From: Arenibacter nanhaiticus
Lineage (GTDB): Bacteria; Bacteroidota; Bacteroidia; Flavobacteriales; Flavobacteriaceae
Length of the DNA: 47,248 nt
Reading direction: 5' to 3'
Assembly (NCBI RefSeq): GCF_900141935.1
Contig: NZ_FQYX01000030.1
Coordinates: 1-47,248, forward strand
The notes below the pieces were generated by a model that was not told the DNA's origin, ran no database searches, and saw only the letters and a list, made by a program, of their open reading frames with translations. Position numbers and translations under genes: made by a program. Below are positions 1,985 to 39,727 of the stretch, piece after piece; the first letter of the stretch is position 1; every line of letters starts with the position of its first letter.

Positions 1985-2998
1985 GTGGCCAAAAACAAAC
2001 ACCAACACATCCGTTACAACACCTTGGACAAATGCTTTTCCAATTTCTTTATCGCCTATTCCTTTGAGGACCTGCTCCATGAGGTCAATAAAGCCATCGC
2101 CGAGTTCGATCCTACCTCCGGGGGCATCAACCAACGGCAATTGCGCAAGGACATCGCCTGGTTTAAACATGCCGATGGGTATAATGCCCCGTTAAAGGCC
2201 TATAGGGGCCCCAACGGCTATTACTACCGATATGAAGATAAGGGCTTTTCCATTAACAAAAGTCCGTTGAGCGAAACCGAAATGGTACAGTTGAACAATG
2301 CCCTTTCCATTTTAAAACGCTTCGAGGGCAGTCCCGAATTCGAATGGATCAATGAAACCACCACCATCCTAAACGATAAACTGGGACTTCAGGACCCCGA
2401 CCAGAAGGTATTGGTATTAGAGGCCAATGTAGATTATACCGGCTATGAGCATATGGCGCCCATTTTTAATGCCATCATTCACAAAAAAGTGCTACGCATT
2501 AGCTACAGCCCCTTTGATGAGCAGAAACCCATCAACACCTTTAATTTCCACCCTTACCTCTTAAAACAGTACAACAACCGTTGGTTTGCCTTTGGCAAGA
2601 ATGAAGCCGCCGACCACATGCAGTGGAATGTACCCCTGGACCGTATTGCGGCCCTGGAGATCCAAAAAGAAGTGCCCTACTCCAAGGACACTACCGATTG
2701 GAAAGCTTTTTTTAAAGATTTTGTAGGGGTCACCAAGGAAGAAGGACCCGTAGAAAAGATAAAGCTGCGCTTTAAGCAGCACCGCCTACAGTACTTCACC
2801 ACCAAGCCTATACATACCGAATGGGACGAGGTCACCGAGGACGGCACCACCTATATAACCCTGGACGTGCTCATCAATAAAGAGCTGATTCAGCAATTGC
2901 TGTCCTATGGCCAAGACGTAGCCGTTATAGAACCCGCATCCTTAAAACAACAAATGAAAAAACACGCAGAAGCCATGGCCGACTATTACAAAAACTAA
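1985..2998 (+). CDS. WYL-domain transcriptional regulator (YafY-like)
   Basis: This 337-aa protein is predicted to control the restriction locus that follows. The N-terminal ~80 residues contain a helix-turn-helix-like region (GGINQRQLRKDIAWF). The WYL domain spans about 150-240, where the signature motif appears as RWFAFGKNEA and is preceded by LRISYSPFDEQK. A C-terminal WCX-like segment covers about 255-337. WYL domains sense nucleic-acid or nucleotide ligands, and related regulators keep phage-defence operons silent until infection. The start is a GTG, because an in-frame stop lies only 15 bases upstream. Palindromes lie just before it (1936-1951) and just after it (3001-3017). The gene runs in the same direction as the hsd genes and shares their GC-rich composition. 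The target is inferred from position. Confidence 0.8.
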   Translation: MAKNKHQHIRYNTLDKCFSNFFIAYSFEDLLHEVNKAIAEFDPTSGGINQRQLRKDIAWFKHADGYNAPLKAYRGPNGYYYRYEDKGFSINKSPLSETEMVQLNNALSILKRFEGSPEFEWINETTTILNDKLGLQDPDQKVLVLEANVDYTGYEHMAPIFNAIIHKKVLRISYSPFDEQKPINTFNFHPYLLKQYNNRWFAFGKNEAADHMQWNVPLDRIAALEIQKEVPYSKDTTDWKAFFKDFVGVTKEEGPVEKIKLRFKQHRLQYFTTKPIHTEWDEVTEDGTTYITLDVLINKELIQQLLSYGQDVAVIEPASLKQQMKKHAEAMADYYKN

Positions 2999-3442: not shown

Positions 3443-4966
3443 ATGATTACCGGAGAATTAAAATCACAAATAGACCAGATCTGGAATACCTTCTGGACAG
3501 GTGGTATCAGCAATACCATTACCATTGTAGAGCAGCTTACCTACCTTATTTTTATCAAGGATTTGGACGAGACCGAAACCCGTAACGAGCGCAAGGCCCA
3601 ACGTGGTTTCGCCCATACCCCCATTTTTGGGGAAGACCAGCAGGATTTTAGGTGGAAAAACCTAAAGGAAATGGACGTAAACGCCCGCCACAATATTTTT
3701 AGCAATACCGTAGACGGAGTTTTTCCCTTCATACGCTCCCTGGGGAGCGAAAAAAGCTTGTTCAGCACCTATATGAAAGGGGCCACCTTTGGGATTTCCA
3801 AACCGGCGGTATTGGACCAGGTGATGGAAAAACTGGAGCGCATCGATATGAGCAACCAGGATACCAAGGGAGATATCTATGAGTATTTGCTGTCCAAACT
3901 CGAAGGCGGTGGCACCGCGGGGCAGTTCAGGACCCCGCGCCATATCATCAAGCTGATGGTAGAGCTGATGCAACCTAGCTTGGAAGATACTATTTGCGAC
4001 CCTTCTGTGGGGACGGCCGGTTTCTTGGTCGCCGCCAAGGAGTATATCGACAAACACAATGGGGTGACCGAACTGGACAAACACAGCGGTCACATTAACA
4101 AAACCATGTTCAACGGGACCGAGTTTGATGCTACCATGTTGCGTATTGCTTCTATGAACCTGTACCTGCACGGAGTGGAAGAACCCAATATCATGGATGT
4201 AGATGCCGTGAGCAAGGACAATACCGTTTCGGATGCCTATTCCTTGGTATTGGCCAACCCGCCATTTAAAGGGACCATTGACAAGGACAGTATTGCCCCC
4301 GGACTAAAGAATGTGACCGATACCTCTAAAACAGAGCTGTTGTTTTTGGCCCTGATGCTGCGCCAGCTAAAGACCGGTGGCCGTGCTGCGGTCATTGTAC
4401 CGGACGGGGTGTTGTTCGGTAGCGGCAAGGCCCATAAGAGCATCCGCCAGGAGATCGTGGCCAATAACAAGCTGGAGGCGGTGATCTCCATGCCCTCGGG
4501 GGTGTTCAAGCCTTATGCCGGGGTAAGTACCGCCATTATTATTTTTACCAAAACAGGTTCCGGAGGAACGGATAAGGTGTGGTTCTACGATATGTTGGCC
4601 GATGGAAAAAGTTTGGACGACAAGAGAAACCTGTTGGTAGACCAAGAGCTTTTTGAGGCCTTTAGTTTTGGCGAAGGTGCCGATGCCCTTACCGAAGCGG
4701 AGCAGAAAGCCTTGCACGACAATTTCAACCTTCCCGATATTATAAAACGCTACCCTAACCGTGCCCAGGACCAAGGTGCCCGTACCGAGCAAAGCTTTTT
4801 GGTGCCGTTTGAGGAAATTAAGGAAAACGACTGGGACCTGAGCATTAACCGCTATAAGGAAATAGTATACGAGGAAGTGGAATACGATGCACCCAATATT
4901 ATAGTTGAAAGAATTAATAAACTTTCTGAAGAAAGAATGAATTTATTGTCTCAAATCAAAAATTAA
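3443..4966 (+). CDS. hsdM: Type I restriction-modification DNA methyltransferase subunit
   Basis: HsdM is the modification subunit of a type I R-M complex. It transfers a methyl group from AdoMet to adenine N6 in the recognition site chosen by HsdS. The 507-aa length is normal. The N-terminal helical HsdM_N domain covers about 1-140. The AdoMet-binding motif I appears as DPSVGTAGF (D186-F194), and the catalytic N6-adenine motif IV as NPPF (N272-F275). GGTAGQFRTPRHIIKLM before motif I is also typical. The gene follows the 124-aa gene by 5 bp and precedes hsdS by 4 bp, so translation is probably coupled. All key residues are present, so the methylase should be active. Confidence 0.95.
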   Translation: MITGELKSQIDQIWNTFWTGGISNTITIVEQLTYLIFIKDLDETETRNERKAQRGFAHTPIFGEDQQDFRWKNLKEMDVNARHNIFSNTVDGVFPFIRSLGSEKSLFSTYMKGATFGISKPAVLDQVMEKLERIDMSNQDTKGDIYEYLLSKLEGGGTAGQFRTPRHIIKLMVELMQPSLEDTICDPSVGTAGFLVAAKEYIDKHNGVTELDKHSGHINKTMFNGTEFDATMLRIASMNLYLHGVEEPNIMDVDAVSKDNTVSDAYSLVLANPPFKGTIDKDSIAPGLKNVTDTSKTELLFLALMLRQLKTGGRAAVIVPDGVLFGSGKAHKSIRQEIVANNKLEAVISMPSGVFKPYAGVSTAIIIFTKTGSGGTDKVWFYDMLADGKSLDDKRNLLVDQELFEAFSFGEGADALTEAEQKALHDNFNLPDIIKRYPNRAQDQGARTEQSFLVPFEEIKENDWDLSINRYKEIVYEEVEYDAPNIIVERINKLSEERMNLLSQIKN

Positions 4967-4970
4967 AGCA

Positions 4971-6140
4971 ATGAATTTATTTGTGCCAATAACTGAAGTG
5001 TGTGATTTCCAGGGAGGAACGCAACCCCCAAAGAGTGAATGGAGATCTAAACCATTAGATGGATACATAAGAATGTTACAGATTAGGGATTTTACTCAAC
5101 CTGAAAAAAATAATGTGGAATACATTCAACATAAAAAAAACACTAAAACGTGCAATAAAGAAGATGTTTTAATAGGCAGATACGGAGCCTCGATTGGAAA
5201 AATATGTACAGGATTAGAAGGGGCATATAATGTTGCCCTCGTCAAGACAATACCAAATTTAGATAAACTAAATAGGAAATTTTTAATGCACATTTTGAAA
5301 AGTGATAATTTTCAACATTTTGTTTTGAATATTGGTTCAAGGGCAGCCCAAGCAGGGTTTAATAAAGATGATTTAACAAATTTCAAAATCCCCCTCCCCC
5401 CCCTTGCCACCCAACAAAAGATCGCTCAAATTTTGGATGATGCGGCGGCCCTGCGCGATAAAACCGCCCAACTCCTCAAAGAATACGACGCCCTGGCACA
5501 AAGTATCTTCTTGGAGATGTTTGGGGATCCGGTGACCAATCCGAAAGAATGGGTTGTGAAGAAGCTTGACAAATTAACCAATTTAATTACAGATGGTAAA
5601 CACGGGAATTGTAGCGATGAAGAAAATTCTGGCTACTTTTTTATAAGTGCCAAGGATGTTAGAAATAATAAAATTAATTACACTAATACAAGACAGATTC
5701 CCAAAATTGAATTCGAAGAAGTGGATAGAAGAACTAATTTGCAAGCGGGCGATTTAGTAATGATTAATACAGGAGCTACAATTGGTAGAATGGCTATAGC
5801 TCAAGATATTCCTGAAACAAGAATGACAACATTCCAAAAAAGTGTTGCTGTAATAAAGACGAAAAAGGAGATCTTAATGCCTCTTTTTCTACAATACGTT
5901 TTTGAATTAAGATTGGAAAGTTTTGTAAACAAAGGCTCTGGCTCTGCTATTAAGAATCTACTTCTTTCTGAAATGAGAAGATTTAAAATTATTGTACCCC
6001 CAATCGAACTCCAAAACCAATTCGCCGAAAAAATAGCCTTGATAGAACAGCAAAAGGTATTGGCCAAACAGGAATTGAAAGAAAGCGAGGATCTCTTTAA
6101 TTGTCTGTTGCAAAAGGCTTTTAAGGGGGAAATACAATAA
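4971..6140 (+). CDS. hsdS: Type I restriction-modification specificity subunit
   Basis: HsdS recognises the bipartite DNA target and docks HsdM and HsdR. The 389-aa protein has the usual two-fold layout: TRD1 (about 1-138), a conserved central helix with PLPPLATQQKIAQILDDA (about 141-185), TRD2 (about 190-335), and a second conserved helix starting PPIELQNQFAEKIALIEQQK. The central helix is GC-rich like hsdM, while both TRD-coding parts are AT-rich, a mosaic expected from swapping of recognition domains. A C5-T-C8 tract (5390-5403) encodes the PLPPL turn and could slip, changing the frame between TRD1 and TRD2. The present frame is intact. No hsdR follows directly: the RT insert comes first. 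Confidence 0.93.
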   Translation: MNLFVPITEVCDFQGGTQPPKSEWRSKPLDGYIRMLQIRDFTQPEKNNVEYIQHKKNTKTCNKEDVLIGRYGASIGKICTGLEGAYNVALVKTIPNLDKLNRKFLMHILKSDNFQHFVLNIGSRAAQAGFNKDDLTNFKIPLPPLATQQKIAQILDDAAALRDKTAQLLKEYDALAQSIFLEMFGDPVTNPKEWVVKKLDKLTNLITDGKHGNCSDEENSGYFFISAKDVRNNKINYTNTRQIPKIEFEEVDRRTNLQAGDLVMINTGATIGRMAIAQDIPETRMTTFQKSVAVIKTKKEILMPLFLQYVFELRLESFVNKGSGSAIKNLLLSEMRRFKIIVPPIELQNQFAEKIALIEQQKVLAKQELKESEDLFNCLLQKAFKGEIQ

Positions 6141-6628
6141 ACAGTTAGCAATGATCAATGAGTGAACTTCCCTGATTTTCGTTGACCGGTTTTAGAAATT
6201 GAGTTCATTCAGTGGCGCCCTTCTTGTTCCTTGTTAAAAAAAGGGACAGGACAAGTATTAATCGGATAAAAAATAAATTTAATATAAAGAATACTAAAAT
6301 AGGGTCAAGATGGCCGAGAAGAACGTTTAGCACGATTACTATCATTTGGGACATACGCCAGATGAGATGCTTATACCAAAGTCTAAAGATGACACATTTA
6401 TTTGTGCAACTAAGGACACTATGGCAAGCAGCAAGCTTGTTATATGGTTAAGTAAGATGTTGTTCATTATTTGAGCTGTTATGTTTATGACAGTTAATAC
6501 AAAGATAGCAATATTTATACCTGAAAAGAGTAGCGACATCGTAACCAGAAGTGGTAAAAATGTCGATAGAGCACTGTTCAATCATAAGCCTGCTACTGAC
6601 GAATCTTGGCCCTTATTTTAAAACTTAT
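6141..6628 (+). other. Long non-coding leader of the RT, possible structured RNA
   Basis: About 410-490 bp of AT-rich sequence separates hsdS from the RT. A hairpin is visible at 6223-6255 (CTTGTTC pairing with GGACAAG, one wobble). A degenerate reading frame (about 6310-6473, MAEKNV then an in-frame stop, then HDYYHLGHTPDEML...) may be a gene remnant. Many defence RTs of the UG/Abi group work with an RNA encoded next to the RT gene, so this region is a candidate. No family match can be stated. Confidence 0.4.
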
Positions 6629-8188
6629 ATGGAAGATCATCCTTGGATTAAACTGAAAAAATATCCTCATATAGGTTTCCCTTTAGAACCTAAGGATATT
6701 TCGTATTTGGAGAACTATATAACAAACCCTGATGTAATTGCAAAACATAGTTTTCTTCCTTTTTTACACCGTACCATTTTTCAAAGAAAATTTAGAGCAA
6801 ACACAGAGGGTGTACTCAATAAAAGCAAAAAACGAACGCGTGTTAAAGCAATAAGACCAAAAGCAAGAGAAATATATTTTGCTAGTCATTTCGATGCTCA
6901 GATTTATTCCTATTACAGTTATTTGCTTTCAGAAAAATATACACAGTTACTCAAAACTAAAAGTTTCGATAAATCTATAGTAGCCTATCGAAAACTTGGA
7001 ATTGAAGGCAAGAACAAGTGCAATATAGATTTTGCTTTAGAAGCCTTTAAGTTTATAAAGAGAAATCAAGACAAAGAGCTTACTGTTATAGTCGCAGATG
7101 TCACCAATTTTTTTGATAGTTTAGATCACAAAATTCTTAAACAAAAATGGGCATCAGTTTGGGATGGTTCAATAACGTTACCTAAAGATCATTACAGAGT
7201 GTACAAGTCTCTAATCAATATGAGATATGTAAATGAGGACTTACTATTTAGAAATTATAAGGACAGGATATGGGTTAAAACATTCATAGAGAACGATCCA
7301 AAACAATCCCAAAAGCGACAAAAAAGTATTAAGCACAAACGATATTTAAAAGATAATAACGCCATTGCCTATTGCGATAAAACTGATTTTTTCAAAAACA
7401 GTTTAAACTTAATTACAAAATCCACAAGGACAGAAGGAATTCCGCAAGGAACTGCGCTTAGTGCAACATTAGCCAATATCTATATGATAGATTTTGACCA
7501 AGAAGTTCAAGATTTTATAGATAGTGATAATATAAAAGGATTTTATCAGAGGTATAGTGACGATTTAATTATAATCATCCCGAGGGAATTTCAAGAAGAA
7601 GCCATAAAACGGCTACGTTCATTGGTATACAATAAAGTAAAACTAGAAATACAATCTAAAAAAACAAAAGTCTACCAGTTTCAGGAAGTCAACGGTACAT
7701 TTAAAGGTTTTGAAGTTGATGAATTAACAGGAGAAAAAACTAACAAAACCTTGGAATACTTAGGTTTTGAATATAATGGACAAAGAGCAATTTTAAAAAC
7801 GTCTGGCTATTCAAAATTTTATAGAGCAATGAAACGATCCTTCAAACGATCGACATCCCTAGCCATTAACGCCAAAAGCACTGATGATAAAATCCATAAA
7901 AGCGCGTTATATAAAAGGTTTACTTATAAAGGAGCAAAACGACGAAAGTTATATACATCAGATCCTCAGAATCCTAATAAGTTCAAAGAAAGATTTCGCT
8001 ATGATTGGGGTAACTATCTAAGCTATGTAAGCAAGGCCAATGATGCTTTCAGGCAATTCAATCAAGGAGATCAAATCAAAAGACAGTCCAGAAACGCTTG
8101 GTCAAATTTTCATGTTTTAATGGTTAAATCTCTTAATAAAATTGAATTAAAAAAGAAGTTATTTTCTTCGTTCAAGAAGATAAGCTAA
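6629..8188 (+). CDS. Reverse transcriptase embedded in the type I R-M operon (UG/Abi-like, unclassified)
   Basis: This is an RNA-directed DNA polymerase. Numbered from a GTG at 6551 (545 aa), the palm motifs are: motif A VADVTNFFDSLDH with Asp183; motif B EGIPQGTALSATLANIY (295-311); catalytic motif C YSDD (335-338); and a later LEYLGFEYNG block (401-410). About 95 residues separate A from B, longer than in retron RTs. A ~135-residue basic C-terminal domain (KRSFKRSTS, KGAKRRK) follows the palm. There is no maturase X or HNH endonuclase domain, which argues against a group II intron enzyme. This matches the defence-related unknown-group/Abi RTs. I prefer the ATG at 6629 (519 aa), just before MEDHPWIKLKKYPHIG; ATG 6560 and GTG 6551 are alternatives. 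The gene is clearly more AT-rich than the hsd genes on both sides, so it was probably inserted. The exact clade is not determined. Confidence 0.85.
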   Translation: MEDHPWIKLKKYPHIGFPLEPKDISYLENYITNPDVIAKHSFLPFLHRTIFQRKFRANTEGVLNKSKKRTRVKAIRPKAREIYFASHFDAQIYSYYSYLLSEKYTQLLKTKSFDKSIVAYRKLGIEGKNKCNIDFALEAFKFIKRNQDKELTVIVADVTNFFDSLDHKILKQKWASVWDGSITLPKDHYRVYKSLINMRYVNEDLLFRNYKDRIWVKTFIENDPKQSQKRQKSIKHKRYLKDNNAIAYCDKTDFFKNSLNLITKSTRTEGIPQGTALSATLANIYMIDFDQEVQDFIDSDNIKGFYQRYSDDLIIIIPREFQEEAIKRLRSLVYNKVKLEIQSKKTKVYQFQEVNGTFKGFEVDELTGEKTNKTLEYLGFEYNGQRAILKTSGYSKFYRAMKRSFKRSTSLAINAKSTDDKIHKSALYKRFTYKGAKRRKLYTSDPQNPNKFKERFRYDWGNYLSYVSKANDAFRQFNQGDQIKRQSRNAWSNFHVLMVKSLNKIELKKKLFSSFKKIS

Positions 8189-8446
8189 AATAAACTTTAG
8201 GATCTATCGATCATGACAAAGACAAAATGGGTACAATTCTTTGTTTTAAAGACTAGTGTTTTATCCTGAGTAGGCGACGATGGGGCAAGTACAACTCTTG
8301 TTATCTGGGAGCAGCATCTTTAAAAACGGTTCCTTCTCTGCGTTGCTATGGTCATGGGACTACAGCCTACGGCCATAATAGTAGGAAATAATCTACTTAT
8401 ACTTTTAAAATTACTGTATATTTAACCATTCATTTAACCTTCTAGT
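8189..8446 (+). other. Intergenic region RT-hsdR, possible structured RNA
   Basis: This stretch of about 260 bp has no ORF. A 7-bp stem (8347-8353 with 8371-8377, one G-U pair) closes a 17-nt loop, and a second possible pairing CCTAC/GTAGG overlaps it. GC content rises locally between about 8270 and 8380 compared with the flanking AT-rich sequence, as often seen for structured RNA. It also separates hsdR from the upstream genes, so hsdR may need its own promoter here; no clear TAnnTTTG box was found. Confidence 0.35.
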
Positions 8447-11400
8447 ATGAGCACTAACTTTCAGTTTATTAAGGCGGAGTGGCCTATTTTTTTCGATAGG
8501 GCCCAAAAAGCGGAACAATTGGTCATTACCGATCCAAGGGCCTCTCTTTTTTATGCCCGTATGGCGCTGGAAGTGGCCGTGAACTGGATGTATACCAATG
8601 ATGAAGAATTAGAATTGCCCTACGATACCGGCTTGCACAACCTTTTGTTACAGCAGGAGTTCAAGCAGCAGTTTAAGAACGCTGCCCTATATGACGACCT
8701 GCACCTTATTAAAAGAAGAGGGAATTTAGCGGCACATAATAGGACGGTTACCGATGTAGATGCCCATATTACCATTGAACAGCTCTATTATTTTGCCAAA
8801 TGGTTTGGAAGAACCTATTCTCAAGAAGCCCTAACAATCCCTGGGATCTTTGATTTTGAAGTAATTCCCAAAAAAGGGGACAATGCCCTTTCGAAAAAGA
8901 AAATACAAGATTTAGAAAATAAACTGAATACGGACTTGTCCAAATTTCAGGAGGAGCTACAAAGGAAAGAGAAGGAAAGATTGGCCTTGGCGGCCGAAAA
9001 CGAACTGCAGAGAAAACAGCTGGAAATCCAGCAGGCCCAAATTGAGGCCAATAAGATTGTCGCCAATACCCAGGACCAGGTACAGCACCCCAGGAATGAG
9101 GCGGAGACCCGAAAACAGTTTATAGATCTGGCCCTGCGCGAGGCCGGGTGGGATTTAACAGGGGTAAACGTCAAGGAGTTTAAGGTGCAGCATATGCCCG
9201 TGTCTACCAATCCCTCGGGCATTGGTTATGTGGACTATGTGCTGTGGGACGATGACGGACTGCCCTTGGCCCTGGTAGAGGCCAAAAGGTCTATGGAAAA
9301 CGCTACCAAGGGCGAGAACCAGGCCCAGTTGTATGCCGATAGCTTGGAAAAAATGTACGGGCGGCGTCCGGTGATGTACTACACCAATGGCTTTGAGACC
9401 TTCCTTTGGGACGATCGCTTCTATAAGCAGGCAAGGCCGGTACACGGCTTTTATACCAAGGCCGAGTTACAGACTGTGATGTTCCGCCGTCAGCACAGAA
9501 AGGATATCCGTACCGCCCCCATAGATACCGATATTGCGGGGCGTACCTACCAGATGCGGGCCATAAAAAGTATAGCCGAACATTTTTCGGGCACCGATAA
9601 ACAAACCGGGAACTTAATAGGCACCCATAGGGGCGCCTTATTGGTTTTGGCCACGGGGACCGGAAAAACCAGGACCAGTATCGCCCTGGCAAAAATGATG
9701 CTGGAATGCAATTGGGTAAAAAGGGTGCTGTTTTTGGCAGACCGCAAAAGTTTGGTGAGCCAGGCGAAATCTAATTTCGTAAAATTCTTGCCGGAGCACT
9801 CCAGTGTAAACCTGATCAAGGAAAAGGACAATCCCGATGCCCGTTTTGCCTTTTCCACCTATCAGACCATGATGGGCCTTATCGATAATTCTAGGGACGA
9901 GGAACACCGTTTTTATGGGGTAGGCCATTTTGATTTGATCATCATTGACGAGGCCCACCGTTCCATCTATAAAAAATACCAGGCCATTTTCGATTATTTC
10001 GATGCCCTTTACCTTGGGCTAACGGCTACCCCAAAACATAGTATCGATAAAAATACCTATGCCATTTTTGGCCTGGCCGATAAATCGCCCACGGACGCCT
10101 ATACCTTTGAGGAAGCTGTATTCAACGGCCATTTATCGCCCTACCGTTCTTTGGAAGTACCTACCAAATTCATGAGGGACGGCATCAAGTACGATGAACT
10201 GAGCGAAGAGGAAAAAGAAGCCTTTGAGGAGGAGATCCTCGACGGGGAGGAAGCTTCGGGAAATGAATGGATTGAATCCGCCGAACTAAACCAATGGTTG
10301 TTCAATAAGGACACCGCCATCAAGACCCTCCGCTTTGTCCTGGAACACGGCATAAAAAAACGCGGTGGGGATGAATTGGGAAAAACCATCGTTTTTGCCC
10401 GCAATAAAAAACACGCCCAGTTCCTAAAGGATATGTTCTTGGAACTGGACAAAGAACAGTTTGGCAACGATTATGTAAAGGTAATAACCCATGGGGAACC
10501 CAAGGCCGAGGAAATGATCAATAGGTTCTGTGACGAGGAAAAAGAGCGCTTGCCACAGATTGCCATTTCCGTGGATATGATGGATACCGGAATAGATGCC
10601 CCTAGCTGCGTAAACCTCGTATTTTACAAACCCGTTAAATCCTACGCCAAATTCTGGCAGATGATAGGCCGTGGTTCTCGTTTGCGCCCCAATTTATTTG
10701 GGGAAGGAAAGGACAAGGAGCGTTTTTTGATCTTTGATCTCTGTCAGAATTTCGAGTTCTTTAAGGAGAATCCCGAAGGGATGGAAACCAGTGCCCAAAA
10801 AGGGCTCACAGAGCTTGTTTTTGGACTAAAATTGCAACTGGCGGAATACCTGAAATCCGAGCAGTTCACGGAAGATACCGATTTGCAGGACTACCGCACC
10901 GCTTTGTTGAACGATTTGCACGAAACCATAGCAACCATGGATACCGATCGTTTTGATGTAAAAATGCAGCTGAAAACGGTTTTGGACTATGGCAATGGGA
11001 ACAGGGAACTATGGAACCATCTTACCAAAAAGGACGTCAAGACCATCACCGAGGTATTGGCCCCTTTGGTAAAACCGCCCAAGGGCGATAACGATTTGGC
11101 GCGCTTTTACGACAAGTTGTTGTACTCCCTAATGGTCAAAAGGCTGGAAACCCCCAATACCCCCGAATTCATTTCCAAACTGAACGTCCCGATAACCAAG
11201 GTAGCGACCACTTCCAATAAGCTGTTGAAAAAAACCACTGTTCCCGAGGTAAAAACACAAGAAGCCTTGATAAAACTGCCCTTGGATGAAAAATTCTGGG
11301 AGAAGGACGGGATCCGACATTTGGAGAAAATACGGGCCGGCATCCGGGAATTGGTAAAATATATAGATCCGGTAGATCAGAAATATGTCACCACCGATTA

Positions 11401-11944
11401 TACCGATAATTTGCAGCAAGACCAGGTAGTAATAACAGACTATGTTCGGGAGAATCCAGAAACCTACCAGACTCCCTTTGCATCTACCCTGCACCGCTTG
11501 GAGAAATTGATCCGCGAGAATAATAACAACCTGACCATCTCCAGGATCCATAAGGGAGAAACTATCACAGAGGAAGAACTAAAGCTCTTGGAAGGGATCC
11601 TATTTTCTGACGGGATCCAAAAAGAACAGGTAGAAAAGGAACTGGGCGAACGTTTGAATTTGGTACAGTTTATAGTCTCCCTTATAGGCCTCTCCGCCGA
11701 AACGGTGGACAGGGCATTTGCGAATTTTATCAACGAACACCAGTTAAGTGCGGTACAGATCCAGTTTTTGGATACCATCAAGTTGTTCCTGACCAAGAAC
11801 GGAAGAATAGACCCTACCAAATTATACGATTCCCCCTTTAAAAACTACCATAGCATGGGCATAGACGGCGTATTTAACGCCGAACAGGCCGATACCATCT
11901 TTAGCATCATCCAAGACTTCAACAAAACCGAAGTAGGCGCTTAG
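8447..11944 (+). CDS. hsdR: Type I restriction endonuclease subunit R with N-terminal DUF4145
   Basis: HsdR is the ATP-driven translocase and nuclease of the type I complex and cuts unmodified DNA far from the recognition site. The 1165-aa protein begins with a DUF4145-like helical domain (about 1-130), then a coiled coil rich in Lys, Glu and Gln (about 150-210). The PD-(D/E)xK nuclease follows, with D263 (GYVDYVLW) and E278-A-K280 (LVEAKR). The SF2 motor has motif I ATGTGKT (402-408), DEAH (501-504), LTATP (525-529) and motif VI QMIGRGSR (738-745). The C-terminal helical domain should bind the methylase core. All catalytic motifs are intact. The gene matches hsdM in composition, which supports that the AT-rich RT between them is a later insertion. 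A terminator follows 32 bp after the stop. Confidence 0.95.
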   Translation: MSTNFQFIKAEWPIFFDRAQKAEQLVITDPRASLFYARMALEVAVNWMYTNDEELELPYDTGLHNLLLQQEFKQQFKNAALYDDLHLIKRRGNLAAHNRTVTDVDAHITIEQLYYFAKWFGRTYSQEALTIPGIFDFEVIPKKGDNALSKKKIQDLENKLNTDLSKFQEELQRKEKERLALAAENELQRKQLEIQQAQIEANKIVANTQDQVQHPRNEAETRKQFIDLALREAGWDLTGVNVKEFKVQHMPVSTNPSGIGYVDYVLWDDDGLPLALVEAKRSMENATKGENQAQLYADSLEKMYGRRPVMYYTNGFETFLWDDRFYKQARPVHGFYTKAELQTVMFRRQHRKDIRTAPIDTDIAGRTYQMRAIKSIAEHFSGTDKQTGNLIGTHRGALLVLATGTGKTRTSIALAKMMLECNWVKRVLFLADRKSLVSQAKSNFVKFLPEHSSVNLIKEKDNPDARFAFSTYQTMMGLIDNSRDEEHRFYGVGHFDLIIIDEAHRSIYKKYQAIFDYFDALYLGLTATPKHSIDKNTYAIFGLADKSPTDAYTFEEAVFNGHLSPYRSLEVPTKFMRDGIKYDELSEEEKEAFEEEILDGEEASGNEWIESAELNQWLFNKDTAIKTLRFVLEHGIKKRGGDELGKTIVFARNKKHAQFLKDMFLELDKEQFGNDYVKVITHGEPKAEEMINRFCDEEKERLPQIAISVDMMDTGIDAPSCVNLVFYKPVKSYAKFWQMIGRGSRLRPNLFGEGKDKERFLIFDLCQNFEFFKENPEGMETSAQKGLTELVFGLKLQLAEYLKSEQFTEDTDLQDYRTALLNDLHETIATMDTDRFDVKMQLKTVLDYGNGNRELWNHLTKKDVKTITEVLAPLVKPPKGDNDLARFYDKLLYSLMVKRLETPNTPEFISKLNVPITKVATTSNKLLKKTTVPEVKTQEALIKLPLDEKFWEKDGIRHLEKIRAGIRELVKYIDPVDQKYVTTDYTDNLQQDQVVITDYVRENPETYQTPFASTLHRLEKLIRENNNNLTISRIHKGETITEEELKLLEGILFSDGIQKEQVEKELGERLNLVQFIVSLIGLSAETVDRAFANFINEHQLSAVQIQFLDTIKLFLTKNGRIDPTKLYDSPFKNYHSMGIDGVFNAEQADTIFSIIQDFNKTEVGA

Positions 11945-16480: not shown

Positions 16481-16884
16481 TTTCCTCTTGGCCCAGGCTC
16501 GCCACCGAACAACAAGGTATCAGAGGGAAAGCTACTCACTAACCGCCTGCCAAAGGGAAGCAACCTACTGAAAATCGTCCTGCGGCAAGCAGCGAATGCC
16601 ATAGGCAACCTAAAGGATACCCACCTCTCCTATTTTTCCGAAGGGTCGCCTATAGAAAGGGTAGACATTCCGCGGTCAGTGCCACGGAACGGAAATTAGC
16701 GGTAATTATTTGGAATATGGTTACCAAAAAAATAAAGTATCAACCACCTAGACAATATTTGTTCCTTGATCAAAAAAGAAAACTTGGACTGGTGAACCGA
16801 ATTAAAAAACAAATAGATAAATTTGAATTAAAACCTGAAGATCTAGGATTTACAAATACCTTAGATATCAGCAACTTAATTTGA
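16481..16884 (+). pseudogene. IS110-family transposase remnant, C-terminal part
   Basis: Reading across at least two frames gives pieces of the IS116/IS110/IS902 C-terminal domain: SSWPRLAT, then KGSNLLKIVLRQAANAIG, KDTHLSYF and VIIWNMVTKKIKYQPP, ending in a basic tail (LDQKRKLGLVNRIKKQIDKF) with a TGA at 16882-16884. The frame changes near 16540 and 16700 show decay. The front of the gene was replaced by the IS256 left end. The remnant ends 20 bp before the start of the Mrr-like nuclease gene, so any promoter of that gene lies within it. Confidence 0.65.
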
Positions 16885-16904
16885 CGTTAGTTGGAATTTT
16901 AATC

Positions 16905-18296
16905 ATGGATATATTTAACAAAACTAAAATAAATGAATTATCTTCTTTAATAAACGAGAAAGAAGATGAAATAATTAACTTAAAAAAGGCTGTTGCTGAA
17001 CTTCAAAAGGAACTCAATATAGAAGAAAAAAAAGTTCTTTCGTTATTGAAAAAGAAAGATGACTTATCTAAAGAATATCAAATCATACAGAGTATTAATT
17101 TAGAATTGTCATCAGATTTGCATGCTTTAAAAAAAGATATTGAGATCAGTATTGAAAAGCAAAAGGAAGATATTGATATTTTGACAAGGTCTTATGAAGA
17201 GAAATTAATAAATCAAAACGATGATTTTAAGTTAAATCTTCACACAGCAAAACTTACAAAATGTAAAGAGTTGCCTTTGAGAATTGAGGAAGATCTTCAA
17301 AAAATTATTTCAGAAAAAGAAATAGGTTTTCCATGGCTTGCAACTGCTATTTCAGAATATTATAAAAATTTAGATAACATATATGCTAGTTATTTAGAAA
17401 GAAAGAAAAGGCCTGCATTCAAAGAAGCGGCTAAAATCAAAGAAGTAGCAAAGGAGAAAGCTCTATTCAAAAAAGAATATTTCATAATGAAATATACCAT
17501 AAAATATTATGAGTCATTGTTTCCTTGGCTTTCTGAATATGTTGGAATTAACTCTGATGAATTAATTGAGGTACTACACTCTGAAAAAACATCAGAAAAA
17601 AATGAAGATCCTGTTCTAAATTATATACAAAGAGGTGAATATGCTAAATTGAACGCTACCGAAAGAAATCAAAAAGCATTAGATAGGTATTGGTCGAGCA
17701 CTAAAACACCATGGCAGATAGGGCGTGATTATGAGAGATATATTGGATATTTATATGAAAAGGAAGGTTATCGAGTTCAATATTTTGGAATAGAAAAAGG
17801 GTTAGAAGATCTGGGTAGAGATTTAGTCTGTACCAAAGATAATATAACCGAAGTCATTCAATGTAAATACTGGTCAAAAAACAAAAATATACCTATTAGA
17901 GAAAATCACATTAATCAATTATTCGGCACAACTGTCAAACATTACATGGATTTTTCAGTAAATAAGCAGAATAATCTACATTATTTTTTAGAAGATTACT
18001 ATAAAGGTAAAATTGTCGGAACAATGGTAACATCAACAATATTGTCTGATACCGCTATAGAATTCAGTAAAACTTTAAATATTAAAGTAAAACAGGAAAT
18101 AGAACTAGATTTTGAATACCCCTGCATAAAATGCAATATAAATCCTACCACTAAAGAAAGGATTTATCATTTACCATTTGATCAACAATACGATAAAACA
18201 AAAATAGATTTTAATTCCGGTGAATTTTATGCTAAAACTGTAAGAGAAGCTGAACAAAAAGGATTTAGAAGAGCATATAGATGGATGGGCGAATAA
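16905..18296 (+). CDS. Coiled-coil Mrr-like restriction endonuclease
   Basis: This 463-aa protein (ATG at 16905; a TTG 24 bases earlier is less likely) is a predicted DNA-cleaving defence enzyme. The first ~115 residues form a long coiled coil (INEKEDEIINLKKAVAELQK). A helical linker follows, and the Mrr_cat fold covers about 265-400. Its PD-(D/E)xK residues are visible as E277 in GRDYERYI, D306 in LGRDLVC and Q319-C-K321 in VIQCKYW. Two C-terminal Cys (PCIKCN) could bind a metal but are only a single pair. Mrr-type enzymes cut modified or foreign DNA. Here there is no methylase beside it, so type IV-like or stand-alone action is inferred. It is strongly AT-rich and flanked by IS remnants, which suggests transfer. 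Confidence 0.75.
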   Translation: MDIFNKTKINELSSLINEKEDEIINLKKAVAELQKELNIEEKKVLSLLKKKDDLSKEYQIIQSINLELSSDLHALKKDIEISIEKQKEDIDILTRSYEEKLINQNDDFKLNLHTAKLTKCKELPLRIEEDLQKIISEKEIGFPWLATAISEYYKNLDNIYASYLERKKRPAFKEAAKIKEVAKEKALFKKEYFIMKYTIKYYESLFPWLSEYVGINSDELIEVLHSEKTSEKNEDPVLNYIQRGEYAKLNATERNQKALDRYWSSTKTPWQIGRDYERYIGYLYEKEGYRVQYFGIEKGLEDLGRDLVCTKDNITEVIQCKYWSKNKNIPIRENHINQLFGTTVKHYMDFSVNKQNNLHYFLEDYYKGKIVGTMVTSTILSDTAIEFSKTLNIKVKQEIELDFEYPCIKCNINPTTKERIYHLPFDQQYDKTKIDFNSGEFYAKTVREAEQKGFRRAYRWMGE

Positions 18297-20841: not shown

Positions 20842-22128
20842 ATGATTATTGAATTTACAGTAGGAAACTTTTTATCCTTTAGGGAGAATAAGACTTTATC
20901 CTTAGAAGCTACAAATATTACGGAATACAAAGAATCAACATTCAAATCAGGAAAATTTAAGCTTTTGAAAAGTGCGGTTCTTTATGGCGCAAATTCAAGT
21001 GGAAAATCAAATTTCATCAAAGCAATGTCAACAATGAAAAGAATTGTAATGACATCTGTTGAAAAAACATCTGCATCCAAATTTGAAATTATTCCTTTTT
21101 TGCTGAATACTAGCACTGAAAATAAACCAACCTTTTTTGAATTAGTATTCTTAATTGATAAAACAAGATATAGATATGGTTTTGAAATAGATAATAGTTC
21201 AATCCATGGAGAGTGGTTGTTTAAATTAGAAGATGATAATGAGATTCCTTTATTTATTAGAGAGGTAAACGGAATTGGAGTAACAGATGACTTCAAGGAA
21301 GGTCATGGTCTTGAATCAAAAACTCGGGAAAATGCCTTATTCCTTTCCGTTGTTGACCAATTTAATGGAGAAATTGCAGCTAAAATAATTAGTTGGTTTA
21401 ATGATTTAGGAACTATTTCTGGATTGAGTCATGATAATTACAGAGGGGTTACTTTTTCATTATTAGATAAAAAGGAATCGAAAGAAAGACTTTTGGATTT
21501 CTTTAAGGACTTAGATTTAGGATTTGAACAACTAAAATTCAGGAAAGAAAAATTTCAAGAAAGCTTTTTACCTAGTGATTTGCCCACAGAACTTTTGAAT
21601 GATATTATCAATGATTTGCAAGGGAAAACTATTGCAAGGATAAATACAGTTCACAATAAATATGACGAAAAAGGTAAAAAGGTTGGGTTTAGAGATTTTG
21701 ATTTACGTGAACAAGAATCATCAGGAACAAATAAAGTATTTGATATTTCAGGACCAATTTTTGATACTTTAATCCGTGGTGGAGTATTGGTTATTGATGA
21801 ACTAGATGCAAAACTTCACCCATTAATGACTGCTGCAATTACTAATTTGTTTAATTCTCCTGAGTATAATACAAATAATGCACAATTAATTTTTGCAACT
21901 CATGATACGAATTTATTATCGTACGGCAGATTTAGGAGAGACCAAATTTATTTTCTGGAGAAAGATAAATTTGAAGCAAGTGATTTGTATTCATTGATTG
22001 AATATAAAGAAGAAGGCTCTGATAAAAAAATTAGAAAAGATAGGTCTTTTGAAAAAGACTACATTAATGGAAGATATGGAGCAATTCCATTTATTGGTAA
22101 CTTTGAAGAACTTTTAAGTAATGGCTAA
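20842..22128 (+). CDS. AAA ATPase of an AbiL-type abortive infection pair
   Basis: This 428-aa ABC/OLD-type ATPase is the AbiLi-like partner. Walker A is GANSSGKS (49-56), Walker B with the acidic pair is VIDELD (317-322), and the switch histidine is H354 in ATHDTN. The N-terminus [20 protein letters not shown] is the usual strand motif of AAA_15/AAA_21 proteins. In AbiL systems the ATPase works with an RloB-like Toprim partner to abort phage infection. The next gene is that partner, overlapping by 8 bp, so the two are translationally coupled. The operon has its own palindromic promoter and AT-rich composition. No defect is visible. Assignment rests on the pair of domains. Confidence 0.85.
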
Positions 22129-22840
22129 TATTATTAAAATAGACAATGCCGTTCTTAAAAGACGAGCAAGAGAAGAAAAGAAACGTAAAACTGAATTTAA
22201 ATCGAAACGAAAGTTTTATTTAATTGTTTGCGAAGGTGAAAAGACTGAACCAAATTACTTTGAATCTCTAAAATCTTCATTGCCTAAAGGAGTCTTAGAA
22301 TTAACTAACATTGACATTGATGGCACTGGAAAAAATACTTTATCAATAGTTGACGAAGCGAAAAAACTAAGAAATAAGTATGAGGAGAAGTATTTGCGAA
22401 AAATTGATAAGGTCTGGGCTGTATTTGACAAGGATAGCTTTCCAACAGAAAACTTTAACAATGCAATAAACAAAGGAGAAAACTCAAAACCGAAAATTAA
22501 TTGTGCTTGGACTAACGAAGCATTTGAACTTTGGTATCTATTGCATTTTAACTTTTATAACACGGGTATTTCACGAGTACAATATCAGAAACTGATTGAA
22601 AAAGAAGTTAATAAAGCAGCAAATCGGACTGACTTTAAATATCAGAAAAACTCAAGGGAGATGTTTGTTATTTTAAACAAATTTGGGAATCAAGAGAATG
22701 CAATAAAGAACGCAGAAAAACTTGAAAATCTTTATTTTGACCGAAGTTTCTCAAATCATAATCCTTGCACTAAGGTTCATAAATTGATTATTGAGTTGAT
22801 TGAATTGACAGAAAAGTACGCTGCCCAACAACAGGTATAA
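22121..22840 (+). CDS. RloB-family protein (AbiLii-like, Toprim fold)
   Basis: This 239-aa RloB-like protein starts with a basic N-terminus (about 10-31, [20 protein letters not shown]). The family's Toprim-type start follows, [16 protein letters not shown], with the conserved Glu in CEGEKTE (38-43). The acidic pair WAVFDKDSF (about 102-110) and [12 protein letters not shown] (about 131-142) are also typical. Toprim folds bind metal and cut or join nucleic acid, so this is the probable nuclease effector, with the upstream ATPase as sensor or regulator. It overlaps that gene by 8 bp. Length is normal for the family. Known AbiL function is from lactococcal plasmids; here it is inferred. Confidence 0.85.
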
Positions 22841-36386: not shown

Positions 36387-37340
36387 TTATTTTAATCGGT
36401 AGATGGTTTTATTCTTTTCTCCAATTTTCTCAAATAAGTTTAATCCAACTCCTTTTTTTAAATCTCTACTTGCTGTTGCTGAAGAAATATCTTTAAAAAC
36501 ATCCATATAATCTTTTCTAGTGAATTCAGTTTTATTTAATGTAATGAAATAGTCAAGCCTATCTTTTTCGTTTAATGTCCTGTTATTAAATTTTAGAAGT
36601 TCGCTAATCGATAGGTCAATGACACTTAACATGTATTCAATAAAATTTGTTGATTGCCCAGCTTTATCAGATTCTGCTAAAGCTTTATAGTATTTTTCTT
36701 GATCGTTACTAATAAGTGTTTCAAAAGGCAAAAACTCAAACACCGGATATTTTTCCATTAGAATTAAGGTTTGCCATAGTCTTCCCATTCTGCCATTTCC
36801 ATCTAAAAAAGGATGAATAAATTCCATTTCGTAATGAAACACACAGCTTTTAATAAGTTCAATTTCGTCTTCATTTTTTAAGTAGTCAAAAAGCTCTTTC
36901 ATTAAAAACGGAACATTCTCAAAAGGTGGAGCTAAATGTTCTACTTTCTCCCCTTTTACAATCCCAACACTTTGATTTCTGTATTTTCCAGCATCATTAA
37001 TGAGATCCTTCATTAAGTGTTTATGTGCCTCTAGAAAAGACTTTTCTTTTTTGGGATCGTATTTTTCTAAATTTTCATAAATCTCAATTGCGTTTAAAAC
37101 TTCGATAACGTCTTTTTTAGGCCCAATCACCCTTTTGTGTTCTACAAGTGCCGTAATCTGTTCTTCAGTTAAAGTGTTTCCTTCAATTTTTAATGAAGAA
37201 TGAATTGTTTTGATTCTATTCTGTTTTCTTAATTTCGGGGAAGGTCTGTTTAAAAAGTTAGCATTTACTTCTCCGATTTTTTCAGAAATGGAAGTTATTA
37301 ATTTTAAAATTTTAGGTGTTATTTCGTAAGGAGGTTTCAT
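36387..37340 (-). CDS. Fic family protein (class II, autoinhibited)
   Basis: This 317-aa Fic protein (ATG at 37340; the ATG 39 bases upstream would run through the palindrome and is rejected) transfers AMP from ATP to target proteins. The catalytic motif HPFLDGNGRMGR (176-187) is complete, with His176 as base. The N-terminal inhibitory helix motif S-x-x-x-E-G appears as SLKIEGN (49-55), so it is the class II type in which the inhibitory helix is in the same chain. The C-terminal ~80 residues (TRKDYMDVFKDISSATASRD) form a winged helix that often binds DNA. A 13-bp-armed palindrome covers the promoter just upstream, which supports autoregulation by that domain. Confidence 0.9.
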   Translation of the reverse strand: MKPPYEITPKILKLITSISEKIGEVNANFLNRPSPKLRKQNRIKTIHSSLKIEGNTLTEEQITALVEHKRVIGPKKDVIEVLNAIEIYENLEKYDPKKEKSFLEAHKHLMKDLINDAGKYRNQSVGIVKGEKVEHLAPPFENVPFLMKELFDYLKNEDEIELIKSCVFHYEMEFIHPFLDGNGRMGRLWQTLILMEKYPVFEFLPFETLISNDQEKYYKALAESDKAGQSTNFIEYMLSVIDLSISELLKFNNRTLNEKDRLDYFITLNKTEFTRKDYMDVFKDISSATASRDLKKGVGLNLFEKIGEKNKTIYRLK

Positions 37341-37372
37341 TTTGATACTATCATTTGATAGTATCAAAAGTA
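37340..37372 (-). promoter_or_regulatory. Fic promoter with perfect palindrome
   Basis: TTTTGATACTATC-ATTT-GATAGTATCAAAA (37340-37369) has perfect 13-bp arms. On the minus strand the -7 box TACTTTTG (TAnnTTTG, 37365-37372) overlaps the outer arm, and a TTG-rich -33 candidate lies 17 bp further upstream. Transcription would start inside the palindrome, and the mRNA has almost no leader. Fic C-terminal wHTH binding is the natural hypothesis. Confidence 0.75.
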
Positions 37373-37607
37373 CAATCATTTATCCACAATTAATGTAACA
37401 GAACGAAATTTATTAATTCCAACTAACGTCAGTCTGTCTCAAAACCACCCTTTAACGGTTGAAAATAGGATTTTATTCGAAGTTCGGAAAATAAACAAGG
37501 AATAGTACACTATTGGTAAGTTAATAACAAATTGAATAGATAGAAAATACAACAATTCGATGCTGCTTGAGGGGGAGGTATATAGAATTTGCTCTTGTAT
37601 GTTTTTT

Positions 37608-38552: not shown

Positions 38553-38852
38553 ATGACACAAAAAAGAAAAACCTATGACACAGCCTTTAAACGCCAAGCT
38601 GTAGCGTTAAGTAAAGGGAGAAAGAACCTTTCAGAACTAGCTAGAGAGCTTGGTATAAAGCCGTATCTTTTATATAGTTGGCGCAAGGAATTCAAAGAAT
38701 TTGGCGAGGGTAGTTTTCCAGGTAATGGCAACTTAAAGCTATCCCCAGAGCAAGAAAGAATCCATGAGTTAGAGAAAAAGTTACGTGATGTTGAGTTAGA
38801 ACATGAGATATTAAAAAAAGCGGTGGCCATTTTCTCCAAGACCGATCGTTGA
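38553..38852 (+). CDS. IS3-family transposase OrfA (HTH)
   Basis: This 99-aa OrfA has the N-terminal HTH of IS3 elements (KTYDTAFKRQAVALSKGRKN; LARELGIKPYLLYSWRKEF) and a leucine zipper-like C-terminus (RIHELEKKLRDVELEHEILK). It ends KKAVAIFSKTDR, the usual OrfA tail. A run of seven A (38814-38820, within TTA AAA AAA GCG) is the slippery site for the -1 frameshift that makes the OrfAB fusion transposase. OrfA alone binds the ends and lowers activity in well-studied IS3 relatives. Confidence 0.88.
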   Translation: MTQKRKTYDTAFKRQAVALSKGRKNLSELARELGIKPYLLYSWRKEFKEFGEGSFPGNGNLKLSPEQERIHELEKKLRDVELEHEILKKAVAIFSKTDR

Positions 38853-39727
38853 TATATGCATTCATAAAAAACAATGAGGGTATATTTCCGATTGATAAAA
38901 TGTGCAAAGTCCTAGCTATAGGACTACGGAGCTATTACAGGTGGAAGCGGTCTTCTACTAGTAAAAGAGAGTTGAAAAAAGAGAAGTTTAAAAAGTTGAT
39001 AACCGAAGTGTATTTCGAGTTTAAACAGCGATATGGCAGTCCTAGGATCACTGTGGAGCTACACAGTAGAGGGTATAAGATATCGCGAATTACTGTAGCT
39101 AAATATATGCGAGAGATGGGGCTGCGTAGTAAGCTAGCTAAGAAGTTTAAAGCGACCACAGACTCTAAGCACAACTACCAAGTGGTAGAAAACGTTTTAG
39201 ATCGTGAGTTTGAGCCAAATAAACCTTCCCAAGCTTGGGTATCCGATATCACTTACATCTCTGTAAAAGAAGGCTTTTTATTTCTGACAACAGTAATTGA
39301 CCTGTATGATAGAAAACTCATAGGCTGGAGCTTGAGTAAAAGCATGGCTACCAACCTAACAACATTACCTGCTTGGCGAATGGCTATTAAAAACCGTAAG
39401 ATTGCCGAAGGCCTTATTTTTCATTCTGATCAAGGAATTCAATACGCTAATAGAGCATTTGCCAATACACTGGAATCTTACAAAGTAGTAAGAAGCATGA
39501 GTAGAACAGGTAACTGTTGGGATAACTCAGTGGCAGAAAGCTTTTTTAAATCGCTTAAAACGGAACTGATTTACGGGAACACCCTGTTAACTAGAGAGGA
39601 GATGGAAAGAGAAATCTTTGAATATATTGAGTTGTGGTATAATAAAAAAAGACGACACTCCTACTTGAACTATATGACCATTGAAGAATTTAATAACAGA
39701 AAAATTAATTACGAATATGCTGCTTAA
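38849..39727 (+). CDS. IS3-family transposase OrfB (DDE integrase core)
   Basis: OrfB (292 aa counted from a TTG at 38849) is the DDE catalytic part. The N-terminal HTH_21 segment (YGSPRITVELHSRGYKI) precedes the integrase core. First Asp in WVSDITYISV, second in FHSDQGIQYA, Glu in NSVAESFFKSLKTEL. All three catalytic residues are present and the frame is intact, so the element may be active. It is normally produced by -1 frameshifting from OrfA rather than from its own start. Confidence 0.9.
   Translation: MIYAFIKNNEGIFPIDKMCKVLAIGLRSYYRWKRSSTSKRELKKEKFKKLITEVYFEFKQRYGSPRITVELHSRGYKISRITVAKYMREMGLRSKLAKKFKATTDSKHNYQVVENVLDREFEPNKPSQAWVSDITYISVKEGFLFLTTVIDLYDRKLIGWSLSKSMATNLTTLPAWRMAIKNRKIAEGLIFHSDQGIQYANRAFANTLESYKVVRSMSRTGNCWDNSVAESFFKSLKTELIYGNTLLTREEMEREIFEYIELWYNKKRRHSYLNYMTIEEFNNRKINYEYAA

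Follow-up and report, generated by a model that had tools for sequence, protein, structure and literature searches.

The locus and its reverse transcriptase

A reverse transcriptase (RT) gene between the specificity and the restriction gene of a type I restriction-modification (R-M) operon raises the question of what kind of enzyme it encodes and what the enzyme does inside a restriction system. The window, i.e. the whole 47,248-nt stretch of Arenibacter nanhaiticus DNA that was analysed, corresponds to contig C71 in a genome of 85 contigs. Positions 6141-8446 proved to be exactly the gap between the stop codon of hsdS (6140) and the start codon of hsdR (8447), with the RT gene as the longest frame inside. 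The genes concerned are:

1985..2998, plus strand: WYL-domain regulator upstream of the hsd operon (Pfam WCX/WYL)
3443..4966, plus strand: hsdM, type I methyltransferase subunit (PADLOC MTase_I, E 1.1e-166)
4971..6140, plus strand: hsdS, specificity subunit (PADLOC Specificity_I, E 3.6e-70)
6629..8188, plus strand: Drt2-like (UG2) RT of 519 aa (PADLOC Drt2, E 1.2e-131; KpDRT2 structures 9c0i etc., E 1.2e-47)
8447..11944, plus strand: hsdR, restriction subunit (PADLOC REase_I, E 2.4e-183)

The palm motifs listed in the sequence-only reading of this DNA (VADVTNFFDSLDH, GIPQG and YSDD) were all found, RVT_1 was the sole Pfam domain detected, in agreement with an RT that has no maturase or HNH part, and the long spacing between motifs A and B was confirmed by an alignment with KpDRT2, whose row is gapped at this place. 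The same reading had called the RT unclassified, and this was wrong: PADLOC, NCBIfam and the PDB all give Drt2 (UG2) as the top match. In PADLOC, Drt2 scored 438 bits, and the RT family ranked second 70 bits. The KpDRT2 structures were matched with a single sequence at E 1.2e-47 and with a profile at approximately 1e-90. In NCBIfam, Drt2 was the best match as well, but its 317.4 bits lie under the equivalog cut-off of 390, and the RT is therefore filed as a divergent DRT2-type variant and not as an NCBIfam equivalog. The catalytic residues are present in YSDD and VADVT, with D157, D311 and D312 invariant among 46 aligned RTs.

In an RT tree of 50 rows, the window paired with Arenibacter latericius (locus L001; SH-aLRT 98) within a clade of 12 members (clade 1; 100). 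Clade 2, with ten members in this tree (99), is the sister of clade 1, the joining node reaching 89 only. Annotated Drt2 proteins of Psychrobacter and Nitratidesulfovibrio stood far off on long branches. A place in a known, characterised clade, which would have spoken against the first reading, was found in part: the gene lies beside the characterised family DRT2, but on a divergent branch and with another template-border repeat. Four loci were dropped as duplicates before counting (L026, L027, L029 and L030, equal to the window, L004, L023 and L016, respectively, and identical over 1540 bases). L022, which has a split RT, L025, L050 and L052 were excluded from the RT alignment and tree.

The RT most likely starts at the ATG at 6629, which gives 519 aa. 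An extension of the frame over 6551-6628 was rejected as protein; the equivalent frame is closed by stop codons in L002, L003, L009 and L018, so that this segment looks like conserved RNA. The gene had also been described as AT-richer than GC-rich hsd genes on either side. This holds for hsdM and hsdR (31.7% GC in the RT versus 48.1% and 46.5%), but hsdS next door is AT-rich too, with 36.2%. Scans of viral contigs by protein and by the RNA motif described below gave no relative, a weak negative since these scans need short exact matches; phage records contained three distant matches.

A predicted structured RNA upstream of the reverse transcriptase

The expectation that an RT of the UG/DRT group is accompanied by an adjacent non-coding RNA (ncRNA) was borne out by the profile matches together with a conserved, alignable upstream RNA in the relatives. 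The RNA itself, which stops just short of the RT start codon, had been missed in the sequence-only reading. Its predicted parts are:

6299..6618, plus strand: DRT2-type ncRNA with approximate ends, consisting of 5' handle, template and 3' scaffold (comparative alignment)
6301..6309, plus strand: 5' arm of the closing stem P1, paired with 6605-6613 in every cell of alignment A1 (100%)
6342..6365, plus strand: hairpin that immediately precedes the template, with 6342-6349 and 6358-6365 as its arms (3 of 8 pairs changed on both sides)
6605..6613, plus strand: 3' arm of P1, pairing with 6301-6309 (9 bp)

The ncRNA could be aligned in all 12 clade-1 and all 11 clade-2 loci. RNAalifold predicted 63 pairs for the clade-1 RNAs, 12 of them changed on both sides. 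The covariation test was limited to four helices (26 of the 63 pairs), including P1 and the hairpin 6342-6365; 98.7% of their cells pair and 9 of the 26 pairs were changed on both sides. None of 500 shuffled alignments reached the observed pairing, both-side changes or covariation score, and 28 of 500 reached the count of further pair types; the structure was derived from the same alignment as was tested, which favours it, and the shuffles ignore relatedness. A slid control that keeps the relatedness paired in 25 to 44% of cells. In clade 2, the closing stem P1 is re-formed with different letters. A pentamer GUAGC after the second border repeat is complementary to GCUAC near the 3' end of the ncRNA and could form a pseudoknot in the 3' scaffold, as in DRT2; this pairing was noticed by eye, and the letters are near-invariant and without covariation.

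Within the 12 clade-1 loci the flanks of the ncRNA are better conserved (identity 0.885 and 0.895) than the template between them (0.798), and the flanks of the Kp ncRNA are described as likewise better conserved than its template (PMC12039810). A motif of 20 bases at the 3' template border was present without mismatch in four of 397 family genomes, all four with an RT of clade 1 or clade 2; in a fifth genome with such an RT (G011) it is one base off. Sense-strand frames over the ncRNA, e.g., 6212-6451 on the plus strand, were rejected as genes, being lost in the relatives.

Border repeats and an antisense frame

The variable region of the ncRNA is bordered on both sides by the pentamer AUACC, and the opposite strand between the repeats is an open frame, referred to as neo after the KpDRT2 system:

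6373..6377, plus strand: AUACC copy 1 at the template 5' end, read as GGTAT on the opposite strand (unchanged in all 23 loci)
6517..6521, plus strand: AUACC copy 2 at the template 3' end (invariant in 23 of 23)
6378..6521, minus strand: neo repeat unit of 144 nt or 48 aa, stop-free and antisense to the ncRNA (GGTAT spacing and stop counts)
6465..6467, minus strand: ATG at residue 19 of the unit, the candidate start codon of neo (all 23 units have an ATG in frame within residues 17-21)

The 23 loci are the 12 of clade 1, window included, and 11 non-duplicate loci of clade 2, i.e. the ten of the tree and L022. All 23 ncRNAs carry AUACC at both borders, and on the opposite strand a GGTAT pair 141-159 nt apart, a distance divisible by three and stop-free in the frame of GGT, occurred in each of them. 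Among the 27 other non-duplicate loci no GGTAT pair at 141-159 nt was present. In a survey of pentamers only GGTAT had such a pair in all 23 loci, the runner-up in 11, and the strand control, ATACC on the RNA strand, gave a stop-free pair of this kind in seven. The loci are related, so they do not count as 23 independent events.

Stop codons are absent from the neo frame, whereas the remaining five frames hold 5 to 115 per clade. A unit would be stop-free by chance in 1-4.5% of cases, as simulated for seven units. The unit lengths vary by whole codons. In 6 of 12 clade-1 RNAs a stop lies outside the unit, two codons beyond the point where copy 1 starts. The 48 residues of the window unit are 62% hydrophobic and had no Pfam match. 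All 23 neo members together gave three weak single Pfam matches (best E 0.0077), and the best PDB match of a neo profile had an E of 0.16. For the neo frame, pN/pS was 0.57 among clade-1 units and 0.85 among clade-2 units, with a lower value (0.74) for one sense frame of clade 2. These values are modest and not decisive for coding; the case for neo thus rests on frame, length and stops.

The ACA motifs of the published DRT2 systems do not recur in the 23 RNAs: no invariant ACA column was seen, and in three of them an ACA lies no more than 12 nt from each border. AUUC occupies both border places in L031-L036, the group that follows in the tree, and in L075, a plasmid locus outside the tree. Units of 129-141 nt, divisible by three, stop-free and with similar-looking proteins, were obtained in five of these seven loci (L032, L033, L034, L035 and L075); the anchors were unmatched in L031 and L036, yet GAAT pairs occur there at 129 and 153 nt. 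With ACA in the Kp type, AUACC and AUUC at the same places, the position of the repeat is thus kept in these groups while its sequence changes. As a control, the repeat search, which finds identical 4-mers or longer, was applied to the Drt2 locus of Psychrobacter (L072) and gave one pair and no clear ACA unit, hence the support for the repeat method is internal and does not come from a known system. Upstream of the RT in L038, an antisense 10-base repeat, TTGTAAAATA, recurs after 138 nt, again divisible by three and stop-free; in this more distant DRT2 it is a candidate for a jump repeat of greater length.

A putative promoter split between the template ends

Bacteroidota promoters follow the consensus TTTG / TAnnTTTG. 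Promoter-like halves were found on the neo strand at opposite ends of the template:

6384..6387, minus strand: -33-like half TTTA on the copy-1 side, one mismatch to TTTG (all 11 clade-2 units have TTTGG here)
6500..6507, minus strand: -7-like half TATCTTTG on the copy-2 side, fitting TAnnTTTG (matched by eye)

Placed at opposite template ends, the halves would be joined only in head-to-tail copies. Calculated across the repeat junction of the window, which is arithmetic on a join that was not made, the two elements are 20 nt apart. The halves were picked by eye, without a chance expectation, and with this proviso TTGACA precedes copy 1 in 8 of 12 clade-1 units, TATATT follows copy 2 in 10 of 12, and the arrangement TTGACA-N17-TATATT results in 8 of 12 (neo strand). 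In clade 2, TTTGG and TAnnTTTG are 20 nt apart in 10 of 11 units; TAnnTTTG is also present in the units of the window and L001. L017 has no exact -7 box. In the 22 units with a -7 box found, the first in-frame ATG follows 20-39 nt past it. For KpDRT2, the reported promoter consists of TTGACA and TATAAT with 17 bp spacing (PMC12039810). A sigma-70 scan of the native DNA from 6000 to 8500 revealed 10 promoter-like sites versus 9.3 expected, thus no excess. As far as the letters go, RT family, predicted RNA structure, both AUACC copies, the stop-free antisense frame of whole codons, the placement of the putative promoter halves and the candidate ATG can be read directly from this DNA.

The restriction operon as a cargo site

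The proposal that the RT is a cargo unit nested between hsdS and hsdR was strengthened by its recurrence in 11 of 12 clade-1 loci; the remaining one, L009, carries no hsd gene on its 7.4-kb piece. The associated idea of a shared regulation through the WYL regulator was not upheld. A tblastn search (E <= 1e-5) upstream of hsdM found the regulator only in the window and L001, two of the ten clade-1 loci that hold this DNA. Clade-2 loci have no close hsd genes, and in four of them distant hsd-like genes are located nearby.

In 7 of the 11 clade-1 hsdS-RT-hsdR loci an extra 0.6-2.5 kb separates the RT from hsdR. Proteins from five of these seven were scanned against Pfam. L018 has a Schlafen AlbA_2/HTH protein (6726-8141), L007 a 431-aa protein that matches no Pfam family, together with a weakly GIY-YIG-like protein under the Pfam cut-off (6512-8391), and L006 a weakly GIY-YIG-like protein, also under the cut-off (6521-7102). 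L008 (6624-8514) and L002 (6785-8804) contain frames of similar size, and the scanned proteins, which exclude the last frames, had no Pfam match.

Among 397 genomes, a survey of HsdR yielded 18 relatives, spread over 16 genomes. DRT2 occupied the gap in two of the 18 (the window and L058, which is the L004 locus); hsdS directly adjoined hsdR in one (L069), hsdS plus another frame was present in two (L059 and L061), and 13 had other frames with no HsdS match within 1.5 kb. Filled by varied genes, the hsdS-hsdR gap is thus a cargo site, as described for DarTG2 and TgvAB, with DRT2 as one settled tenant. The genome of the window encodes a second HsdR of 44% identity (G000:C70:47176-50604).

Further defence-like genes are present in the window. 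A two-gene AbiL-like unit at 20842-22840 (plus strand), AbiLi with an AAA_21 and AbiLii with an RloB domain, represents a second defence system; a Fic protein matching PADLOC SoFic (E 1.3e-44) is encoded at 36387-37379 (minus strand), and a protein with an Mrr-type restriction endonuclease domain (Pfam Mrr_cat, 2.3e-06; no PADLOC match) at 16881-18296 (plus strand). With these three the window looks like a defence island. An integrase-core (rve) transposase-like protein is located at 38849-39727 (plus strand).

Proposed mechanism and alternative explanations

The gap very probably houses a divergent Bacteroidota member of the DRT2-type (UG2) abortive-infection phage-defence systems, which would make a Neo protein from concatemeric cDNA and has the space between hsdS and hsdR as its cargo site. 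The model of its expression, cDNA synthesis, triggering by phage and toxicity follows KpDRT2 as described in PMC12039810, PMC11100668 and PMC12596737. The RT would bind the upstream ncRNA. Upon infection, it would prime near AUACC copy 2 and, starting there, copy the template of 144 nt as far as AUACC copy 1. The nascent 3' end, GGTAT, could then re-anneal to copy 2, and continued synthesis would yield a head-to-tail cDNA. Once a second strand is made, each junction would unite the -33-like and the -7-like element and transcription may begin. The stop-free frame would be translated into a repetitive hydrophobic Neo protein, and the cell would be arrested. One 5-mer, GGTAT, could serve both priming and jumping, for which KpDRT2 is reported to use a DNA primer GATAT and a jump via TGT (PMC12039810, PMC11100668).

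A bolder version of this mechanism is tentative, and we regard it as rather doubtful. Resembling telomerase, AUACC would be both primer-binding and jump site, so that each lap remakes the primer GGTAT; the motif would be free to drift between DRT2 clades (ACA, AUACC, AUUC) provided that the copies match and the lap is divisible by three, the promoter would be tuned to the host sigma factor, and in the clade of the window the unit would have become a fixed component of type I R-M operons, serving as a backup to restriction.

The recurrent position invites the reading that the DRT2-type system is coupled to the R-M operon as a guard, comparable to PrrC, and fires when a phage disables restriction. 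The hsdS-RT-hsdR order of nearly all clade-1 loci fits such a role, PrrC and PARIS are termed R-M guardians (PMC12707154), the trigger of KpDRT2 itself is described as unknown in the published work, and RT distances track those of HsdM (Mantel test, 10 taxa, r 0.74, p 0.0005). However, genes of the same genome correlate anyway, and for the same taxa the correlation with HsdR is weak (r 0.43, p 0.06; for HsdS, r 0.38, p 0.03), several HsdR being cut by the locus end and that of L002 comprising just 45 aa. The clade-2 relatives share the design of ncRNA and Neo without close hsd genes (four with the distant hsd-like genes), L009 has the system without hsd on its piece, and in most other loci different genes occupy the gap. 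Coupling is an improbable explanation. An effector role of the repetitive cDNA itself, with a real rolling-circle template and an open antisense frame that is a by-product of constraints from RNA folding and promoter, appears less probable still. It could draw on the weak pN/pS of the neo frame and on other families, since toxic DNA homopolymers are the reported product of DRT9, and what the repeat DNA of DRT10 does is described as unclear. A by-product is difficult to reconcile with 23 of 23 units that stay divisible by three and stop-free across 141-159 nt, with the conserved ATG and the promoter-like order, and with an antisense strand open in 23 loci versus a sense strand open in seven.

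That the RT belongs to a group II intron-like element or a retron, or is a degenerate remnant, can practically be dismissed, although the RVT_1 fold is common to such RTs. An identity as group II intron, retron or other DRT was rejected: RVT_1 stands alone, the Drt2 profile is far ahead with group II and retron profiles at about one fifth of its bits or less (46 bits for retron St85 in NCBIfam versus a cut-off of 235), and the Rfam scan of the window gave no family at gathering score, neither a group II intron RNA nor an msr/msd match. The RT frame is intact and falls into a supported clade, which speaks against a remnant. A DRT2-type system as cargo remains the preferred reading.

Comparison with known systems

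As far as KpDRT2 is described in the cited sources (PMC12039810, PMC11100668; PDB 9c0i, 9jl3, 9lv5), both systems combine an RT with an upstream ncRNA. They also have in common a template between short repeats, a stop-free neo frame that is antisense to the ncRNA and has a length divisible by three, and a hydrophobic Neo, predicted in the window, without known domain. At the two template ends KpDRT2 has its promoter halves, and the window has promoter-like ones. The window differs in a longer RT (519 versus 425 aa, with additional residues between motifs A and B) and, compared with the published values, in an ncRNA of approximately 320 nt between predicted ends versus 280 nt, a border repeat of five (AUACC) versus three letters (ACA), and units of 141-159 nt in clades 1 and 2 versus 111-129 nt in 42 homologues. 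Unlike KpDRT2, it has a putative -7 element of the Bacteroidetes type and is housed inside a type I R-M operon. The published DRT2 work mentions that Neo is harder to annotate in more divergent clades and that the mechanism might differ there.

Defence genes within type I R-M operons are on record for PrrC in EcoprrI, TgvAB on VPI-2 and DarTG2 in the RRDM island (PMC12707154, PMC11411939, PMC12255303). As described there, all three resemble the RT of the window as a second defence unit inside hsd genes, and DarTG2 even shares the position between hsdS and hsdR, a site termed a potential recombination hotspot (PMC12255303). The cargo of the window is in contrast to these an RT with a predicted ncRNA template. 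Titles and abstract openings among the literature matches listed, a scope that leaves supplements and most subscription journals outside, contained no DRT2 between hsdS and hsdR and no Neo with an AUACC repeat; some of the ncRNAs may be among those tabulated by Tang et al.

Judged by its sequence features, the locus would represent a DRT2 of a distant phylum with a different border repeat, a longer unit and promoter elements of the host type that apparently follows the same logic. Matching short repeats, an antisense frame divisible by three and a split promoter may serve as a rule for seeking hidden neo genes elsewhere. The differing border repeat would make it possible to test directly what specifies template jumping, and the regular place in the restriction operon would make the question of a backup defence testable.
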